A stretch of 25,119 nucleotides of DNA from a virus. Below, piece after piece: positions 1,356-22,013 of the stretch. Where the stretch lies: positions 1 through 25,119 of IMG/VR virus record IMGVR_UViG_3300007558_000004; one strand, written 5' to 3'. How positions within the stretch are numbered: the stretch's first letter is position 1; the number at the start of each line of letters is the position of its first letter. The translations under genes and the position numbers were made by a program. The notes beneath the pieces are model-generated. The model was not told the DNA's origin. It saw only the letters and a list, made by a program, of their open reading frames with translations, and did no database searches.

Positions 1356-3441
1356 CTTTATCAAGGGTCTTATTACTGAGGCTGGTGAACTTTCTTTTCC
1401 TGAGGGTGCTTCGGTAGACGAACTTAACTGTGACCTTCGTAAAGATGGTTCTCGTCGTAGACGCCTTGGTGTAGCTATTGAAGACAGTGCTGTTGCTGGT
1501 CCTGTTGTCAATGACGAAGACATTGTAACGAGTGGTGATTGGGTTAATGCTGGTGGTGTAGCTAACAAAGAGTTTCTTGTAGTACAGATTGGTGGTACTC
1601 TTTACTTCTACAACAAGGGTGCTCCCCCTTACTCTGGTGACCAAGCACCCTTCACAGTAGACCTTAACAGCTTCTCGTCTGGTTACGGTCTTGGTGCTGC
1701 TTACTACCACTGCAGCTTTACCTCACTTAAGGGTTATCTTGTAGTATCCAGTGGTGGTATTAACTCCTTCTACGTCAAGTACTCTTCGTCAACGAACACC
1801 ATTACCACAGGCAACATTACCCACAATGTTAGGGACTTCGAGTGGCAGGGTGACACAAGTACCTACTACGAAGCTGGGTCCTCTACTGAGGTTAATCGTC
1901 TGTATGACGCAGAGAACTCTGGGTGGGGCGCAACCAATGCTCCTGCCTATGATGGTAAACCACTTACTATGCCTTGGTATGCTGGTAAGGATGCTGATGG
2001 TAACTATGATTCCGCTGAGTGGGATAAGATCTTTGCTGGCTCTTCGCTTACTGCCAACGGCCACAACATCCTTAACTTCTTTGCAAAGGTTCGCTCAGGT
2101 ATTACTACTGAGATTGAGACATCTCGCTTCAAGTGTGCAGAGGCTTTCTCTGGTCGAGTATTCTATGCTGGCCTAGACAGTGAGAAGAACTCAGGTACAA
2201 TTCTTTTCAGTCGCCTTATTGAGAACGTTTCTGACTTTGGTGTCTGTCACCAAGTCAACGACCCTACTGCAGAGTACCTCAGTGACCTTTTGGATACTGA
2301 CGGTGGTGAGATCAAAATCCCTGACTGTGTCGGTATCAAACGTCTCTATGCGTTTAGAACGTCTCTGTACATCTTTGCTGAGAACGGTGTTTGGTCTATC
2401 TCTGGTGTTGACGGTATCTTTAAGGCTTCTGCTTACTCCATCAACCGTGTGTCAAACGTAGGTATTACTACCTCAACAAGCTTTGTGGCTGCAGAAGGTA
2501 TTCCACTCTGGTGGTCTCGTTTCGGTATCCATACTCTGAACTTCGATCAGGTTAGTGGTACTGCTTCTGAACAGAACCTTTCTATTCCTACCATTCAGTC
2601 TTACTGGGATGACATCCCTGCTAACTCCAAAGACAATGTAACTGCAGTATACGACAACATCAGTAAAAGAGTCTACTGGTTCTACCCTGATGATAACGAA
2701 CCAACAAACAATAAACTTAACAACGCACTCATACTTGATGTACCACTCCAGGCTTTCTTCCCTTGGAGGATCTCTGATGATAACACAGAATCGTCTGTCA
2801 AAGCCCACGTAGTTGGGGCCGTGTTCTATTCAGGCTATGGTGCGTCTGATCTCGTTATCAATGTTATTACCTCTAACGGTGACAATGTTGTGTCTAACTC
2901 CTCTAACGTAGTCGTTACGAGACAGCATCCGTTTAACAGCGGCGACAGTGCTATTATTCTTCTTGTAAGAAGCCGTGACACAAAACAACTGACGATGGCT
3001 ACATTTACCTCTACAGGCTTTACTGACTGGGGTAATGCTAGTTACACGTCCTTTGCTGAGACTGGTTACGATTTCATTGGTGACCTGACCCTAAAGAAGA
3101 ATGCACCATTCCTCACTGTCTACTCTCGTTTGACAGAAGAGGGTTTCGAGTACACCAATGGCGAGTACGAAGTTGTTAGGCCATCATCTCTTCTTGTGTC
3201 AACTGCATGGGACTTCAAGGAAACCTTTAACGAACCACAACAGGCATATAGACTTAAGTATCCAGTTGTGGTAGACTCACAGGACCCAAGCATTTTCAAC
3301 TACCCTGAAGAAATGATCGTAACTAGACTTAAAGTACGTGGTCATGGTCGTTCAGTGCGTATTCGCTTCGAGAGCGAGGGGTCTAATGACTTTATTCTCC
3401 TAGGTTACGCAATGGTACAGGGTGTCAACGGAAGGCCGTAA
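1321..3441 (+). CDS. Tail tubular protein B (T7 gp12-like nozzle)
   Basis: This 706-residue protein is recognised as tail tubular protein B, which in T7-like podoviruses forms the tail nozzle below the gp11 ring. The N-terminus has the family signature of a short basic lead, then FIKGLITEAGELSFPEGA, then an NCDLRKDGSRRRRLG segment. The body is a beta-propeller-like series with many GG/YY turns, including the FAENGVWSISG stretch near residue 350-360. T7 gp12 is 794 residues, so the length is reasonable. A purine-rich Shine-Dalgarno (ggaaagaag) sits just before the ATG. The gene follows tail tubular A with only one small gene between, and precedes the internal virion proteins, as in T7. Confidence is high for family and moderate for detailed structure. 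Confidence 0.9.
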   Translation: MAQRANQKIVNNFIKGLITEAGELSFPEGASVDELNCDLRKDGSRRRRLGVAIEDSAVAGPVVNDEDIVTSGDWVNAGGVANKEFLVVQIGGTLYFYNKGAPPYSGDQAPFTVDLNSFSSGYGLGAAYYHCSFTSLKGYLVVSSGGINSFYVKYSSSTNTITTGNITHNVRDFEWQGDTSTYYEAGSSTEVNRLYDAENSGWGATNAPAYDGKPLTMPWYAGKDADGNYDSAEWDKIFAGSSLTANGHNILNFFAKVRSGITTEIETSRFKCAEAFSGRVFYAGLDSEKNSGTILFSRLIENVSDFGVCHQVNDPTAEYLSDLLDTDGGEIKIPDCVGIKRLYAFRTSLYIFAENGVWSISGVDGIFKASAYSINRVSNVGITTSTSFVAAEGIPLWWSRFGIHTLNFDQVSGTASEQNLSIPTIQSYWDDIPANSKDNVTAVYDNISKRVYWFYPDDNEPTNNKLNNALILDVPLQAFFPWRISDDNTESSVKAHVVGAVFYSGYGASDLVINVITSNGDNVVSNSSNVVVTRQHPFNSGDSAIILLVRSRDTKQLTMATFTSTGFTDWGNASYTSFAETGYDFIGDLTLKKNAPFLTVYSRLTEEGFEYTNGEYEVVRPSSLLVSTAWDFKETFNEPQQAYRLKYPVVVDSQDPSIFNYPEEMIVTRLKVRGHGRSVRIRFESEGSNDFILLGYAMVQGVNGRP

Positions 3442-10975: not shown

Positions 10976-11686
10976 ATGGACTTCTCTAAAAGAGCAGTAG
11001 AAGTTACCCCTGACAAGGCTGTGGGTAATGAAGATATCGCAGTTAACTTCGCCACTGGTATTCAAAAGGCCCTTGAGTTGAACACAACTCTACCATCTGC
11101 TACAAGAGTATCTCTGTCTGCTACAAGAGTATCTCTGTCTGCTACAGGTGGAGGTAACTATGATAGTACCATCGCCCCATACACTGGCAGTGAAGCCTCC
11201 CTCCGACCGGAGTCAACAACCCAGTCGGCACTGCGGGTTGTAGAGGCGGGCACTTACGACACTCTCTTCGGTCATGCTGAGAGAACTTCAGACCAGTTTA
11301 GAGGTGTTCGTGTATCGACTATGACAGTCGGTGAACTTATACAGTTCTCTGATCCGTCAGGCCCATACGGTCAATGGGTAAAACCACGCCTTGGTTCAAA
11401 CACCTATGCAGGACGTAACGGCCTAACCTCTACTCCAATGGGTAAATACCAAATTGTAGGTAGTACACTTAGTTACCTTGTTAATAAGATGGGGTTGGCA
11501 CCAGACACAGTCTTTGACAGAAAGACTCAGGATGAAATGTTCCTTGTCCTTGCGAGAGAGGCCATCGGTAGTGGTAGGTCACCAGAACAACAGAGAGCAA
11601 GACTTCGTTCTACTTGGGAGGGCTTCAAGCACTTAGACGATGTCACTCTAAACGAAGTAATTAGGGAGATTACGGGTAATGTTTGA
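10976..11686 (+). CDS. Lysozyme-like peptidoglycan hydrolase, probably virion-associated
   Basis: This 236-residue protein has a divergent N-terminal 90 residues and a C-terminal lysozyme-like domain (about residues 90-225). The domain has YDTLFGHAER, with a Glu in the place expected for the catalytic acid. VSTMTVGEL and DPSGPYGQWV follow, then STPMGKYQIVGSTL, matching the substrate-groove pattern of lambda endolysin R (GAGRYQLL). The next helix, FDRKTQDEMFLVLAREAIG, also fits that family. It should cut the glycan backbone of peptidoglycan. Sitting among the ejection proteins with no signal peptide, it most likely replaces the transglycosylase domain of T7 gp16. It could also be the endolysin, because a holin candidate lies about 840 bases downstream. 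The N-terminal region contains a 21-base tandem repeat. A strong Shine-Dalgarno (aaggag) precedes the ATG. Confidence 0.75.
   Translation: MDFSKRAVEVTPDKAVGNEDIAVNFATGIQKALELNTTLPSATRVSLSATRVSLSATGGGNYDSTIAPYTGSEASLRPESTTQSALRVVEAGTYDTLFGHAERTSDQFRGVRVSTMTVGELIQFSDPSGPYGQWVKPRLGSNTYAGRNGLTSTPMGKYQIVGSTLSYLVNKMGLAPDTVFDRKTQDEMFLVLAREAIGSGRSPEQQRARLRSTWEGFKHLDDVTLNEVIREITGNV
11096..11146 (+). repeat. 21-bp in-frame tandem repeat (2.4 copies)
   Basis: Two exact copies of a 21-base unit (11096-11116 and 11117-11137) are followed by the first nine bases of a third (11138-11146). Being a multiple of three, the unit keeps the frame of the lysozyme-like gene and encodes the heptapeptide SATRVSL twice plus SAT. 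It lies in the linker before the catalytic domain. Confidence 0.95.
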
Positions 11687-12524
11687 CTTCAGTAACAGGT
11701 CCAGAGACCCTAACGCATCCGTTTGGGAGGAGGCTATTGCAATGGGTAGTCATGCCATTGCATCCGGCAAGCAGATGGTGTCTGACACAGCAGACCAAGT
11801 GGAGCTTTGGTTGCCTACCAGAGAGGAGGTGGCTACCGCAGCAGACTCTGCTATCGCCACAGCGTCTGACTTAGCTGGTCAGGCTGGGGAGGCTATATCT
11901 AATGCTGCCGATAAGACTGTCACAGTCGCAAAAGCAGTTTCATCAACACCTATTAAAACACTGCTTGACGACATCTTCCTGCCAAATCTTGGGCGTAAGA
12001 TAACTGCTGACAACTTCACCCCTGAAGCCATTGAGACCATTAGGGCTATTGCTCAGAATAAGGGCTTGACCCCAGGTGAGACTGCAAGGGTAACCTACGA
12101 AGACTACAACACAGTTGGTTCTAGTATGTCAGTCAGATTCAAGAGTGGGCAAAACCAAAACCAGAACATGCTAGAGAGCCTTGCCAACCTAAGCGGTGCC
12201 GACGAACTTAAGATGACACTTGGCGAGGCGACACTGTCTATGGATAGTGAGGGTAATATTACTCTTACTGACCAGTACGATTTTAACTCTTGGGTTGATT
12301 TCGGTGCAGGTGCTGGTCCTGACGGTAAGTATAGAGAGCTGACTTCAGAGGAGTTTGCTGCCTCTGATATTAGTTTTACCGAGGCTGTAATGAATACCGT
12401 CAATAATGCCCCATCAAAATACCAGATGATGAGAAACCTTGCATTTCTTTTCGGTAGCCGTGACTACCAAGACCCAAGCAAGGACACTGGACGTACTGTT
12501 GAGATAAACCTAGGTAAGCTTTGA
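11679..12524 (+). CDS. Probable virion protein of unknown function
   Basis: This is a 281-residue protein without a recognised enzymatic motif. The first 90 residues are an Ala-rich amphipathic helix region (ADSAIATASDLAGQAGEAIS and around) that could be a coiled coil. The second half has a beta-rich pattern with GEATLSMDSEGNITLTDQYD, then YDFNSW. It ends in a short segment with LAFLFGSRDYQ and a terminal strand pair (EINLG). I have seen the DxYDF plus terminal strand pattern at the end of various phage virion and endolysin-linked proteins, but I cannot name a function. The gene overlaps the lysozyme-like gene by 8 bases, so the two are coupled. Position suggests a structural or ejection role, or one in lysis. 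Confidence 0.7.
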   Translation: MFDFSNRSRDPNASVWEEAIAMGSHAIASGKQMVSDTADQVELWLPTREEVATAADSAIATASDLAGQAGEAISNAADKTVTVAKAVSSTPIKTLLDDIFLPNLGRKITADNFTPEAIETIRAIAQNKGLTPGETARVTYEDYNTVGSSMSVRFKSGQNQNQNMLESLANLSGADELKMTLGEATLSMDSEGNITLTDQYDFNSWVDFGAGAGPDGKYRELTSEEFAASDISFTEAVMNTVNNAPSKYQMMRNLAFLFGSRDYQDPSKDTGRTVEINLGKL

Positions 12525-12525
12525 A

Positions 12526-12738
12526 ATGAGCTTCGCAAGTAAGACGTTTAAGAGGGAGTACGCCGCAGCATTCGTTGCGGTACTCTGCCTTAAAATCTAT
12601 CAGGGTGACGTTCAGATGGTCGAGGCTATCGTGTGGCCCTTCATATCTTTTGTAGCTGCATCAGCGGGGCTTCATATCTATGACAAGACTAGCGGTAATA
12701 GCACTTCTCCTGCTCCTGACGGGGTGCAGCGGGATTAA
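12526..12738 (+). CDS. Small membrane protein, holin candidate
   Basis: This 70-residue protein has two hydrophobic segments, about residues 12-26 (YAAAFVAVLCLKIY) and 33-52 (VEAIVWPFISFVAASAGLHI). A short polar loop separates them and a hydrophilic tail follows. Size and layout fit a small phage holin, which would open the inner membrane at the end of infection. The C-terminal 59 bases overlap the spanin candidate in another frame, as is common in lysis cassettes. The start lies one base after the previous stop, with only a weak Shine-Dalgarno (aggtaag, 12512-12518). No unique holin motif exists, so the call rests on topology and neighbours. A simple membrane-anchored structural protein is the alternative. 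Confidence 0.55.
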   Translation: MSFASKTFKREYAAAFVAVLCLKIYQGDVQMVEAIVWPFISFVAASAGLHIYDKTSGNSTSPAPDGVQRD

Positions 12739-13033
12739 CCCATTAAGTATTCTTGGTGGTGGTGGGCCTAACGTAGCAGCCAACGTACAGGCAGGGGCTG
12801 AGAACAATCAACAGATCGTAGGTCAGCAGAGTATAACTAAGGCTGAAAGAGATGTTGTCAATACTACCGAGACTAAGCAGGTAGAGACACAGCAGGTAGA
12901 AACTATTAACATAACCAACGAGAAGATACCTGTATGGTACATAGTCTTACTTGTTGTTGGTTGGTTACTACCGTCACCCTCTGAGATAGCCAGAGGTTTC
13001 GTAGGTCTATTTAAGAGGAAGACTAATGGCTAA
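12680..13033 (+). CDS. Lipoprotein with C-terminal membrane segment, u-spanin candidate
   Basis: This 117-residue protein begins with a classic lipoprotein signal: positive N-terminus, Leu-rich core, and lipobox L13-T-G-C16. The mature part is polar, with Gln/Thr/Val-rich stretches (TKQVETQQVETINITNE) of about 70 residues. A strong membrane segment then follows at about residues 88-101 (PVWYIVLLVVGWLL), with a basic tail (FKRK). A lipid anchor at the N-terminus plus an inner-membrane anchor at the C-terminus is the architecture of unimolecular spanins such as T1 gp11. These bridge and fuse the two membranes in the last step of lysis. The start lies inside the upstream holin candidate, recalling the nested Rz/Rz1 arrangement. 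Similar proteins with WLLPSP after the membrane segment are common in marine phages, usually unannotated. Confidence 0.7.
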   Translation: MTRLAVIALLLLLTGCSGINPLSILGGGGPNVAANVQAGAENNQQIVGQQSITKAERDVVNTTETKQVETQQVETINITNEKIPVWYIVLLVVGWLLPSPSEIARGFVGLFKRKTNG

Positions 13034-13446: not shown

Positions 13447-13480
13447 AACCCCCAAGGATTTCTCCAAGGGGGTTTTTCTT
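13447..13480. terminator. Bidirectional intrinsic terminator between convergent arms
   Basis: The hairpin has an outer stem CCCCC (13449-13453) with GGGGG (13468-13472), extended by the flanking A/T pairs. An AA/AA internal mismatch, an inner GGA/TCC stem and a TTTC loop complete it. On the + strand a run of five T follows (13473-13477). On the - strand the stem is followed by TTATTTTTTATTTT. It sits between the last + strand gene and the last - strand gene, so it should stop transcription from both sides. Confidence 0.85.
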
Positions 13481-13886: not shown

Positions 13887-14587
13887 TACAAACCCTCCTT
13901 CATAAAGGCTACGATCCACTGTTTACACAGATCAGAACGAACAATGTCGTCAGCCGTGAACTCTACCACAGGAACGGGGATCAAGTGCTTCTTAGCGATA
14001 TGTATTGCCTTCGCAAGACCTGACGTTTCACCAAGATCAGACTGTTGTATGTCACCATTAAGAACGACAGTGCAGTTCTGACCGACACGAGTTAGAAACA
14101 TTTTCATCTCGTGTGGTGTAACGTTCTGCGCCTCGTCTAGGATGACGAAAGCATCTTGGAAAGAACGACCACGCATAGTCTCGAATGGTGCGATCTCAAT
14201 GTTACCGTTCTTAATACCAGTTTCAACGACACCCTTACCCAAGTGCCAGTGAAGTACTTCAAGAACAGGCATGACCCATGGCATCATCTTCTCCTCTAGG
14301 GTCCCAGGAAAGTAACCGATGGACTTACCAGCCGCTACGTTAGGTCTGGTGATGATGATCTTGTCGATAGCCTTAATCTGGTAAAGCTGTGACGCCTTGG
14401 TAGCAGCGATGTATGTCTTACCAGTACCAGCAGGACCAAGTACAATAACCTGACTTGCTGTGTCGAGGTGCTTGACATACTCCTCTTGTTTAAAGGTCTT
14501 TGGTAGAAGCTGGATAACAGGTTTGTTGTCAGCATTCTTGTATGTTGTTACACGTCTTGTCTGACGTTTAGGCTTTTCTTGTACCAT
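13886..14587 (-). CDS. phoH: PhoH-like P-loop ATPase
   Basis: This 233-residue protein has the full PhoH fold. Walker A GPAGTGKT is at residues 51-58, TRP at about 80-82 is followed by a GYFPGTLEEKM segment, and Walker B FVILDEAQN is at 147-155. A NGDIQQSD sensor motif follows. PhoH proteins bind and hydrolyse ATP, and bacterial members are linked to RNA processing. In marine phages phoH is a common auxiliary gene whose role during infection is not settled, despite the historical name tied to phosphate starvation. A basic N-terminus (residues 1-14) could contact nucleic acid. The ATG shares one base with the stop of the upstream gene (TAATG). Confidence 0.93.
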   Translation of the reverse strand: MVQEKPKRQTRRVTTYKNADNKPVIQLLPKTFKQEEYVKHLDTASQVIVLGPAGTGKTYIAATKASQLYQIKAIDKIIITRPNVAAGKSIGYFPGTLEEKMMPWVMPVLEVLHWHLGKGVVETGIKNGNIEIAPFETMRGRSFQDAFVILDEAQNVTPHEMKMFLTRVGQNCTVVLNGDIQQSDLGETSGLAKAIHIAKKHLIPVPVVEFTADDIVRSDLCKQWIVAFMKEGL

Positions 14588-15042
14588 TATTCTGGGACCT
14601 TTATTAGTTCGGCTTGTTCGACTGGTATGTGGTAGAATTGTTCACCCTTGCGGATGTTTCTACCAGATGCTTCACGCAGCACATCCTGAGTAAGGTAGGT
14701 GTCCTTAATGCGCCATGCTTGCTTAAGGTCTTTGTCGAAGACGTAGAAGTTAAGAACACCATCCTTCTCACGATACTCGTTCAGTAGACGTGTCTTTCGT
14801 TCTGGTATTCTAACGTCTAACCACGTTGGGTTCCACTGTCCTGACCACCCTACCTTAACCTCGGCCTCATTAAAGAACGTTAGACCGTGCTTTCTTGAGA
14901 CAACATCGACGTAGTAGTCTTCGACGGTGCTCTCAATAGTGTGACCTTTATGCAACAAGTATCGAACCAGTGCATCTTTTGCTTTACTATCGTAGGCTTC
15001 ATACAAAGCTCTATTAAAGCTTTTACGCACGGGTTTTGTCAT
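14587..15042 (-). CDS. Conserved phage protein, possible PD-(D/E)XK nuclease fold
   Basis: This protein of about 151 residues follows the tRNA in the transcript. I chose ATG 15042, which has aagga about seven bases upstream; an earlier in-frame start at 15090 would lie within the tRNA gene. The protein has a helical N-terminus (about 50 residues), then DYYVDVVSRKHGLTFFNEAE followed by VKVGW. An Asp, then about 15 residues later Glu-X-Lys, is the spacing of the PD-(D/E)XK nuclease core. A PTWLDVRIPERKTRLL helix and a NFYVFDKDLKQAWRI strand pair follow. The fold suggestion is inference from this pattern; the family itself is common in podoviruses as a hypothetical protein. Its neighbours are PhoH and nucleotide metabolism genes. 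Confidence 0.75.
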   Translation of the reverse strand: MTKPVRKSFNRALYEAYDSKAKDALVRYLLHKGHTIESTVEDYYVDVVSRKHGLTFFNEAEVKVGWSGQWNPTWLDVRIPERKTRLLNEYREKDGVLNFYVFDKDLKQAWRIKDTYLTQDVLREASGRNIRKGEQFYHIPVEQAELIKVPE

Positions 15043-15057
15043 GGGGTATCCTTTAGT

Positions 15058-15134
15058 TGGTCTCCTCGACAGGACTCGAACCTGTAACACCCTGATTAGA
15101 AGTCAGGTGCTCTATCCAATTGAGCTACGAGGAG
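15058..15134 (-). tRNA. tRNA-Arg (anticodon UCU), CCA encoded
   Basis: The - strand folds into a complete cloverleaf. The acceptor stem is CTCCTCG with CGAGGAG, with discriminator A and an encoded CCA (15060-15058). The D arm is GCTC...GAGC, the anticodon stem is CCTGA/TCAGG with loop CTTCTAA (anticodon TCT), and the T arm is ACAGG TTCGAGT CCTGT. It reads AGA codons, and AGG by wobble, for arginine. It is placed in the middle of the protein-coding - strand transcript between glutaredoxin and the nuclease-fold candidate, so it must be cut out of an mRNA by host RNases. Confidence 0.95.
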
Positions 15135-20016: not shown

Positions 20017-20121
20017 TTAAGCTCCTTTAGCTTGAGTACGGAAAGTAATAAGTACGATTGCCTTGTATGTCAAGTACAAAAGTACAGGAAAAAGACCTAA
20101 TACTAGATCAGTGAGTGTCAT
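20017..20121 (-). CDS. 34-residue single-pass membrane protein
   Basis: A short ORF fills the gap between polymerase and SSB. It starts with ATG 20121, inside the last codons of the polymerase, and ends with TAA two bases before the SSB start. The protein begins MTLTDLVLGLFPVLLYLTYK, continues with AIVLITFRTQ and ends AKGA. It is one hydrophobic helix with a basic end. An excellent Shine-Dalgarno (ggaagga) lies six to seven bases before the ATG, inside the polymerase gene, which supports real translation. No family is recognised. It might be a membrane anchor or a small toxin-like or regulatory peptide. Confidence 0.6.
   Translation of the reverse strand: MTLTDLVLGLFPVLLYLTYKAIVLITFRTQAKGA
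20045..20073 (-). promoter_or_regulatory. Possible sigma-70-type promoter for the SSB gene
   Basis: On the - strand a perfect TTGACA (20073-20068) is followed after exactly 17 bases by TATTAC (20050-20045), four of six matches to TATAAT. The predicted start, about 20038, leaves a leader of roughly 25 bases before SSB with its Shine-Dalgarno. The region also has four AGTAC pentamers (starting 20035, 20051, 20073, 20081 on the + strand). It overlaps the 34-residue ORF. Confidence 0.45.
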
Positions 20122-21151
20122 ACCAGTTCCTTCCAATGTCAGATGATCCTGCTAGAGGGCAGAACATGTTGAACTTCTTGCCAGTCTCTTCGATAGACTG
20201 TCGTTGTAGTAGTGCCAAACGTTCAGCCGTAGCCATATCACCACTAACCTCTGTCTGCCATTCGTCATGGGGCCAGGTTACAAGCTTGTAGTTGATCCCC
20301 TCCTCGGTTGCTTTCTTATTCCAGCGGAGAGCAGAGTGTTTCATGATCGTGCTCTCCCCGTTCTGTAACATACCAGCTAGTGTCTTGTGCTCTGACGGAA
20401 CGATAACCTTACGACCATCAAGTCCCTTGAACCAGCCACGCTTTGCAACGTGTGGTATGATGTTGTTCTTTAGGTCAGCAAGGCCAGTGATGGAGTTGGT
20501 GAAGTTCTCAACAGCCTCAGCAGCCTCACGCTGATTAACCCGAAGGATTTGTGCAACCTTACCGTTACCAGCACCAAGAAGGAATGCGTAGATGAATGTC
20601 TTTGCGTCATCACGGGTTACATGGCTAATGCCAAGAGCCTTCTTGTTTAGGTTGTGGATGTCGGTCTCGTCCTCCTTCTTTCCTGATATGATAGCGTGAA
20701 CATACTCCTCAGACTTCATAAGGTGGGCAAGTATGCGAAGCTGAATACCCTCAGCGTCCGTCCCGACGAGGTAACTACCCTCTGGTACACACCAGAGTTT
20801 ACGGAAGTCTCCATCATACTTTGCTTTAACAGCGTCAACAGCCGTTCTGGGTTGCCCGTGAAAAGCTGAGGGGATGTTGGCTTGGTTTGGCGCACTGTGT
20901 GCCATTCGTCCAGTCCAAGCTCCGATGTGTGTAAAGCGTCCATGAATACGTCCATCCTTTTCATTGTAGTGACCAAGCCATTCCACCAAGCTTGATCGTC
21001 TTCCTTCGAGAGTGAGCCACTCAGCAAGGTTCTTTGCACCCTCAGGTGCGAACTCAGGAAGAGTGCTGAGGTTTACCTCAGATAGTGTCCAACCATACCG
21101 CTCGAACTTAGCGCCACGCTCTTCGGTTAGCCCTTTGCTTTTCACGTTCAT
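20108..21151 (-). CDS. DNA polymerase family A, polymerase domain (C-terminal part, split gene)
   Basis: This 347-residue frame carries the complete polymerase active site of a T7-like family A enzyme. Motif A is LVGTDAEGIQLRILAHLM, motif B is RDDAKTFIYAFLLGAG, and motif C is WPHDEWQ. Other matches to T7 gp5 are GRIHGRFTHIGAWTGRMAHS, the KGLDGRKV stretch and the end NWYDTH (T7 NWAICH). It overlaps the exonuclease-domain frame by 44 bases and is +1 relative to it. The ATG at 21151 has an aaagga about ten bases before it, so it can be translated on its own. A +1 frameshift in the overlap would join both parts into one enzyme of about 640 residues (T7 gp5: 704). Confidence 0.93.
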   Translation of the reverse strand: MNVKSKGLTEERGAKFERYGWTLSEVNLSTLPEFAPEGAKNLAEWLTLEGRRSSLVEWLGHYNEKDGRIHGRFTHIGAWTGRMAHSAPNQANIPSAFHGQPRTAVDAVKAKYDGDFRKLWCVPEGSYLVGTDAEGIQLRILAHLMKSEEYVHAIISGKKEDETDIHNLNKKALGISHVTRDDAKTFIYAFLLGAGNGKVAQILRVNQREAAEAVENFTNSITGLADLKNNIIPHVAKRGWFKGLDGRKVIVPSEHKTLAGMLQNGESTIMKHSALRWNKKATEEGINYKLVTWPHDEWQTEVSGDMATAERLALLQRQSIEETGKKFNMFCPLAGSSDIGRNWYDTH

Positions 21152-22013
21152 ATTCGATATGTCCTTTCGTCTTTTCTACTGGCTCCCATCCTGCTTCCCA
21201 CAGTCGGTCTATCCGCTGTTTCGGTGAGGCTGGATTAAAAGAAACAAAGTCGTAGCAGTGTAAGTCAGGGGGGTTAACAGAGTTATCAACCTTTGTCATT
21301 ACATATTTACTACGGGCGTTATCAACTGACGCCACAGGGGTGTTGTCTTTCTTGAGACGGTACTTGATCGTGTTGACTACCTCAAGCTTAGGAGGGAAGT
21401 CCTGCTGGAACCCTGTCTCAAGCTCCTCCATACGTGCCTTGATAACGTCAAGCATTGACAGGGCTAGGGTCTGGTTAAAGTAGAACCCGTTCTCTGTCAT
21501 CTGCTCACACAGCCGCTGGATTTGATGCTCACACTTGAGTGCTTCCTGCCACTCAGGGTCTTCGATAACTTTACGGAACTTGTTGTAAAGCTCAACAGTC
21601 ACCGTCACGTCTTGGTGACAGTAGTCAATCATCTCTTGGTTAAGGTGGGACCAGTCAGAGTAATCAGTCTTGTAGTTACCAAGTCTCTGGCCCCACGCCT
21701 TTAGGCTATGACCACCCTCAACACTGAAGTCAACTAGACGAGATACGATCAGGGTGTCGATCACTTTGTCATAGTCAATATTAACACCATCAAGCATACG
21801 ATTAAGGACTGGAACATCAAAACCGATACCGTTGTGCAGTACGAAACGATCAGCATCAGCGATGTAGTCAATGAACCGTTGTCTCTCTTCTGGTATGGTG
21901 TCAACATTAAGAAACTGATTCTTCTCACCACTGCTGGTATCTTGGGTGCAGATAACCCATATGCGTCTAGCATCAAGGGCGTCCGTCTCTATATCCATAG
22001 CGACTATCTTCAT
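21108..22013 (-). CDS. DNA polymerase family A, 3'-5' exonuclease and thumb (N-terminal part, split gene)
   Basis: This 301-residue frame carries the proofreading exonuclease: Exo I MDIETDALD (Asp/Glu pair), Exo II FVLHNGIGFDVPVLNRML, and Exo III MIDYCHQDVTVTVELYN with Tyr and Asp. All metal-binding residues appear intact. The later part matches the T7 gp5 thumb, including FVSFNPASPKQRIDRLWEAG. It then ends in a stretch that no longer resembles the family (about the last 10 residues), since the frame leaves the homologous path. The palm and fingers continue in the overlapping downstream frame. Its start ATG shares ATGA with the stop of the upstream small membrane protein. In T7 both domains are one protein. 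Confidence 0.93.
   Translation of the reverse strand: MKIVAMDIETDALDARRIWVICTQDTSSGEKNQFLNVDTIPEERQRFIDYIADADRFVLHNGIGFDVPVLNRMLDGVNIDYDKVIDTLIVSRLVDFSVEGGHSLKAWGQRLGNYKTDYSDWSHLNQEMIDYCHQDVTVTVELYNKFRKVIEDPEWQEALKCEHQIQRLCEQMTENGFYFNQTLALSMLDVIKARMEELETGFQQDFPPKLEVVNTIKYRLKKDNTPVASVDNARSKYVMTKVDNSVNPPDLHCYDFVSFNPASPKQRIDRLWEAGWEPVEKTKGHIEYEREKQRANRRAWR

Follow-up and report, generated by a model that had tools for sequence, protein, structure and literature searches.

The experimentally tested prototype of the unimolecular spanins (u-spanins) is gp11 of phage T1, which complements the loss of Rz/Rz1 in lambda (Kongari 2018, PMC6139136). In the model given there for T1 gp11, the lipidated end lies in the outer membrane and the helix in the inner membrane, and the two membranes are drawn together after degradation of the wall. 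The lambda Rz/Rz1 system is likewise proposed to bridge the periplasm and to disrupt the outer membrane. The available parts of Kongari 2018 list T1, SIO1/P12053L and CHOED as separate families, with SIO1/P12053L (P12053L_39) given as a u-spanin family in Table 5 and CHOED as a singleton u-spanin; they report a periplasmic Cys in none of 58 u-spanins and describe little experimental work on u-spanins so far. The u-spanin architecture in cobaviruses has been described in Bischoff 2019 (PMC6775973), the available parts of which credit Summer et al. with the first report of the SIO1 spanin and mention, for the cobaviral spanins, one E. coli phage match with very low similarity. We found no experiments on the SIO1-type branch in the literature looked at, and no paper linking the SIO1 and T1 families in a search that was not exhaustive. 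Nor did the titles listed include a relevant study of the virion proteomics of these phages.

The DNA analyzed here, a 25,119-base fragment of a phage genome, is referred to as the window. Of its 33 listed genes, 27 match at least one of the four complete cobavirus genomes (ICBM1, P12053L, SIO1 and ICBM2) at an E value of 1e-3 or better, which makes this phage a cobavirus-type podophage with mixed affinities to the ICBM2 and SIO1 branches. The firm matches include the RNR (81% identity to P12053L), PhoH (61-62%), a large internal virion protein (46% to ICBM2), and the two ORFs of a DNA polymerase (78% and 63% to ICBM2). These, at 20108-21151 and 21108-22013 on the minus strand, encode its polymerase and exonuclease parts separately, the arrangement also annotated in ICBM2. 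Elsewhere, ORF 14587-15090 in its longest reading overlaps, at its 5' end, a tRNA-Arg (tct) at 15058-15134 (minus strand); the real start of this ORF is probably internal. We propose, with a probability of roughly 0.9, that the gene at 12680-13033 encodes a unimolecular spanin of this phage. The features of the region are as follows.

10976..11686, plus strand: endolysin-like gene (56% identity to the ICBM1 lysozyme-like endolysin; phrog_90, endolysin, E value 1.1e-7)
11679..12524, plus strand: gene for a 281-aa protein between the endolysin and the holin-like gene, counterpart of SIO1 gp23 by comparison with SIO1
12526..12738, plus strand: holin-like gene, 70 aa, a putative holin by anatomy and position
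12680..13033, plus strand: u-spanin candidate gene, ATG at 12680, TAA ending at 13033, 117 aa
12680..12727, plus strand: signal sequence and lipobox LTGC, ending at Cys16 (12725-12727), Ser at +2, from the sequence
12755..12811, plus strand: conserved lipid-proximal motif GGGGPNVAANVQAGAENNQ, residues 26-44, partly common to T1 gp11, from majority-residue frequency and the T1-family alignment
12812..12928, plus strand: polar periplasmic linker, variable in sequence and narrow in length, from conservation and Cys-to-helix span
12929..12982, plus strand: C-terminal transmembrane helix, about residues 84-101, from hydropathy, with GWLLPSP at 12959-12979
12983..13030, plus strand: basic cytoplasmic tail, from the sequence (predicted topology)

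The 117-aa protein begins with MTR, including the basic residue Arg3, followed by a hydrophobic stretch and then by LTGC. Hydropathy in a 19-residue window peaks at residues 4-22 (2.03) and 83-101 (1.64), the region between being polar, and the tail after the helix (FKRKTNG) is basic. Sequence and hydropathy thus bear out the lipobox at Cys16, the predicted site of lipidation, and the C-terminal helix with basic tail that a first-pass annotation of this DNA had pointed to, while the polar periplasmic part, put there at about 70 residues, measures 68 from Cys16 to the start of the helix. Cys16 is the sole Cys of the protein, so the periplasmic part is Cys-free. Scanning ORFs of at least 60 aa for a basic N-terminus, a lipobox closing the hydrophobic stretch and exactly one later helix near the C-terminus, crude criteria as they are, returned 12680-13033 as the only one of 89 ORFs in the window. 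Among 4574 ORFs from the window and 142 loci, which were picked for holding relatives or lysis regions and one of which (L001) repeats part of the window, 143 passed, comprising 138 relatives and 5 unrelated proteins. A chance origin of the architecture was rejected on these counts. From the Cys to the end of the gene, the differences from an 85% identical relative (L015) number 11, 7 and 35 at codon positions 1, 2 and 3, respectively, which shows selection at the protein level. The AlphaFold model is weak (mean pLDDT 65, pTM 0.28); at this low confidence it has the C-terminal helix and no strands. No solved structure matched at an E value of 1, nothing useful matched in Pfam, and the comparison of this low-confidence model with viral fold models was uninformative (best E value 6.5).

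Based on sequence comparison, the window protein has 55% identity with SIO1 gp22, 52% with the ICBM1 'spanin' (AYP28147), 54% with the ICBM2 protein, and 48%, over two thirds of its length, with that of P12053L. The results from tblastn searches of 50,697 phage records include Lentibacter phages ICBM1-3, SIO1, Siovirus records, P12053L, CRP-9, CRP-171, CRP-345, DSS3_VP1, a Cobavirinae oyster phage, and Aeromonas phages 1233 and MQM1, together with weaker matches to Drexlerviridae u-spanins; the labels of the relatives are mostly hypothetical. The NCBIfam model NF037952 (spanin2_3) matches the window protein with an E value of 6e-21 and all 27 family members compared at 1e-3 or better, the bit scores of the window protein (74.3, i.e., 5.7 under) and SIO1 gp22 (45.8) lying below the curated cut-off of 80. 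SIO1 gp22, P12053L_39, the ICBM1 spanin, NF037952 and phrog_30566 have in common with the window protein the lipobox, the GGGPNVAANVQAGAEN motif and a C-terminal helix ending in GW..PSP, as well as the position after the endolysin, facing the PhoH/RNR arm. On this homology, which extends along its full length, the protein is a predicted SIO1-type u-spanin and not a new kind of spanin. The window differs from the four cobavirus genomes in the holin-like gene that its spanin gene overlaps, a two-helix type with no match there, and in lacking an i-spanin-like neighbour. In CRP-171 (L011:2953-3303), the annotated start at 3073 lies downstream of the lipobox and the ATG at 2953 restores a VMAGC-like lipobox; some members may therefore be hidden by start errors.

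The first-pass annotation had described proteins with the WLLPSP signature as frequent in marine phages and usually lacking a function. The family is widespread in environmental viral contigs, with at least 528 confirmed relatives in IMG/VR (528 among the first 600 matches to the search pattern), and it is not functionally blank, given the u-spanin assignments in Kongari 2018 and Bischoff 2019 and the model NF037952. The relatives considered are the best-scoring 80 of each search. All 129 environmental relatives fetched, representing 98 distinct proteins, have the lipobox, called by pattern and not by SignalP, and the C-terminal helix, and none has a Cys after the lipidated one. The residue at position +2 governs lipoprotein sorting; among the 98 proteins it is Gly in 51, Ser in 26, Leu in 19 and another residue in 2, and never Asp, so that sorting to the outer membrane would be expected. 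All 27 aligned representatives share Cys16, Q37, Q44, G94, W95, P98 and P100, and the majority-residue frequency averages 0.82 across residues 26-44, 0.91 across GWLLPSP and 0.38 across the linker at residues 45-77; the QxGxxN motif pattern is missing from 6 of the 98 proteins. These 98 distinct proteins are related to one another and were picked as the best matches; in them, the Cys-to-helix span averages 66.4 residues (range 60-73, sd 3.7), with a coefficient of variation of 0.056 vs 0.153 for the tail. At 0.34 nm per residue, an extended chain of 60-73 residues reaches about 20-25 nm, close to the periplasm width, which suggests, as a suggestion only, that the linker of the marine spanin family may be selected for length. 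The description of this large environmental family, conserved at both ends and joined by a linker of 60-73 residues that varies in sequence, is an addition of the present work. Relatives are also present on 10 contigs of reference genomes, nine of which carry names that we take to be those of the roseobacter group or Rhodobacteraceae, and the remaining one belongs to a planctomycete MAG. The latter contig (L157), assigned to Blastopirellula, was probably misbinned or is that of a free phage.

The cassette runs from the endolysin-like gene through the 281-aa protein, the holin-like gene and the spanin gene to two small basic proteins, after which a terminator-like site (13449-13470) faces the PhoH/RNR arm. 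A promoter scan around the spanin gene returned one site, a smaller number than the average for shuffled versions. At the SIO1 locus (L002:3182-3956), gp23 is shorter than its ICBM1 counterpart and the missing C-terminal part is readable just downstream in another frame, possibly owing to a frameshift or an error of sequencing in the record. The 27 loci examined for an endolysin were the window and 26 cluster representatives. In 21 of them a candidate near the spanin gene was picked by eye, and the majority of these candidates match families of peptidoglycan hydrolases; those left out are L014 (a copy of the window itself), L133 (start of a contig), and L020, L054, L096 and L114, where no candidate was seen within 2.6 kb. 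The product of the holin-like gene has two hydrophobic stretches by two measures and one by a third, and found no match in PHROGs at an E value of 0.01 (best 0.21) or in NCBIfam at 1.

As the first-pass annotation had noted, the start of the spanin gene is nested in the holin-like gene, which contains its first 59 nt. Among 130 loci, a holin-like family A overlaps the spanin start in 15, with 14 of the overlaps being 56-62 nt, and a family B does so in 10, 6 of them within the same range. No relation between the two families was detectable (probability 0.3%), and neither has a PHROGs function. Loci with such overlaps include the window (12526-12738), L069, L066, L061, L020, L093 and L083. That nearly identical overlaps are reached by unrelated families suggests that coupled translation of holin and spanin is under selection, which we regard as a lead and not as a result. 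The recurrence of the overlap is itself an addition of the present work.

The window protein also resembles T1 gp11 directly. In a single BLASTP comparison the E value is 6e-10 over 99 residues, with lipobox and helix in register, and phrog_1804 (Rz-like spanin; the T1 gp11 family) matches the window protein with an E value of 2.7e-11 and 23 of 27 members at 0.01. Profile-profile comparison with the T1 family gave a probability of 98% with signal peptides kept and 92% with signal peptides removed; the periplasmic parts by themselves gave 68%, and leaving out the first motif gave 25% (score 22.5). For none of these three trimmed comparisons was the observed score reached in any of 200 column shuffles. 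The phrog_1804 E values weaken without the signal peptide (window 5e-4, SIO1 0.031, ICBM2 0.18), and T1 gp11 as query did not match phrog_30566 at an E value of 1. Besides the N-terminal lipobox, the single C-terminal helix and the absence of a periplasmic Cys, T1 gp11 shares with the window protein an alignable stretch of the first 30 or so residues after the Cys and the place at the end of the lysis cassette. It differs in lacking GWLLPSP and in its periplasmic span, which is 83-90 aa in eight T1-type members vs 60-73 in the marine family. The available parts of Kongari 2018 (PMC6139136) further describe the partners of T1-type spanins as mostly a pinholin and a SAR endolysin, and the T1 periplasmic part as predicted to be mainly beta, whereas the low-confidence model of the window protein is strand-free. 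Common descent of the SIO1-type family and T1 gp11 is likely, although not proven, and the evidence that their relatedness may reach beyond the signal peptide, which includes the weaker results above, is an addition made here.

The CHOED, Aeromonas phage 1233 and VP41s3 proteins (phrog_16830) also have the lipobox and the C-terminal helix, but identity is low, and the gene in CHOED and 1233 stands directly before the terminase gene. The phage 1233 protein matches both phrog_30566 (E value 3e-10) and CHOED (2e-22). We speculate, while rating it somewhat short of an even chance, that SIO1-, T1- and CHOED-type spanins might form one homologous superfamily with conserved membrane-facing ends, in which the length and not the sequence of the linker would be selected, the linker serving as a ruler until the wall is gone. 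On the same tentative footing, these ends would be GGGPNVAAN.Q.G.EN by the lipid and, where the helix meets the cytoplasm, GW(L/V)LPSP for the marine branch. If so, a linker of 60-73 residues would span about 20-25 nm only when nearly extended.

Architecture, cassette position, homology to SIO1/P12053L and the direct match to T1 gp11 all agree, and so support the unimolecular spanin that the first-pass annotation had proposed as the predicted function. The existence of a separate Rz/Rz1 pair would speak against it; a scan for lipoprotein-signal patterns revealed no credible Rz1-like second lipoprotein in the 25-kb window, to which fragment the search for an o-/i-spanin pair in this phage was limited, or in the complete ICBM1, P12053L, SIO1 and ICBM2 genomes. 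Besides the spanin, ORFs with such a signal number none in P12053L, SIO1 and ICBM2, two in ICBM1 and one in the window, and these three are short and overlie larger genes, either on the opposite strand or in another frame. The negative result for the four complete genomes is a further addition of the present work. Unlike lambda Rz/Rz1, which is composed of two proteins and with which no homology was found, the window protein has no second component found here. The cobavirus genomes do hold an i-spanin-like protein of 86 aa, charged beyond its N-terminal helix, that adjoins the spanin in all four:

L152:16124-16384, L153:17468-17728, L154:24306-24566 and L155:15483-15743, minus strand: 86-aa neighbour in the four complete cobavirus genomes

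It is related to phrog_19911 in ICBM1, and some neighbours of this kind give weak matches to Rz-like spanins (phrog_7686, E value 0.03; phrog_739, E value 0.0018). The window protein could accordingly be imagined as the lipoprotein half of a two-component system with such a partner, its own C-terminal helix being secondary. This is quite improbable, since that helix is kept in all 129 environmental relatives fetched, with the GWLLPSP end among the best conserved parts, the periplasmic Cys is absent, and the window has no neighbour of this type, the i-spanin-like scan yielding only an out-of-frame ORF inside another gene. The 86-aa protein is therefore not needed for the unimolecular reading here, and is a candidate holin, antiholin or accessory i-spanin.

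Still less probable is a lipoprotein of another role, either in superinfection exclusion, as in Cor, or as a virion-associated membrane protein. Internal virion proteins are encoded in the same operon, and the Cor family (phrog_1119) gives a weak match with an E value of 0.13. The match covers residues 1-21 only, which is the signal peptide, and a Cor-like exclusion protein was rejected for this reason; T1 Cor, moreover, is without a C-terminal helix, and the endolysin candidates near the gene in 21 of 27 loci count against such a role.

As a unimolecular spanin, the product of 12680-13033 would bridge the periplasm with its lipidated end in the outer membrane and its C-terminal helix in the inner membrane. 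With the inner membrane opened and the wall degraded by the holin-like protein and the endolysin, the spanin molecules thus freed would then collapse or oligomerise, disrupting the outer membrane, presumably by fusion with the inner membrane. Lysis of Gram-negative hosts ends with the action of spanins, and the two nearly invariant ends and the linker of narrow length give simple mutants for a lambda rescue assay.
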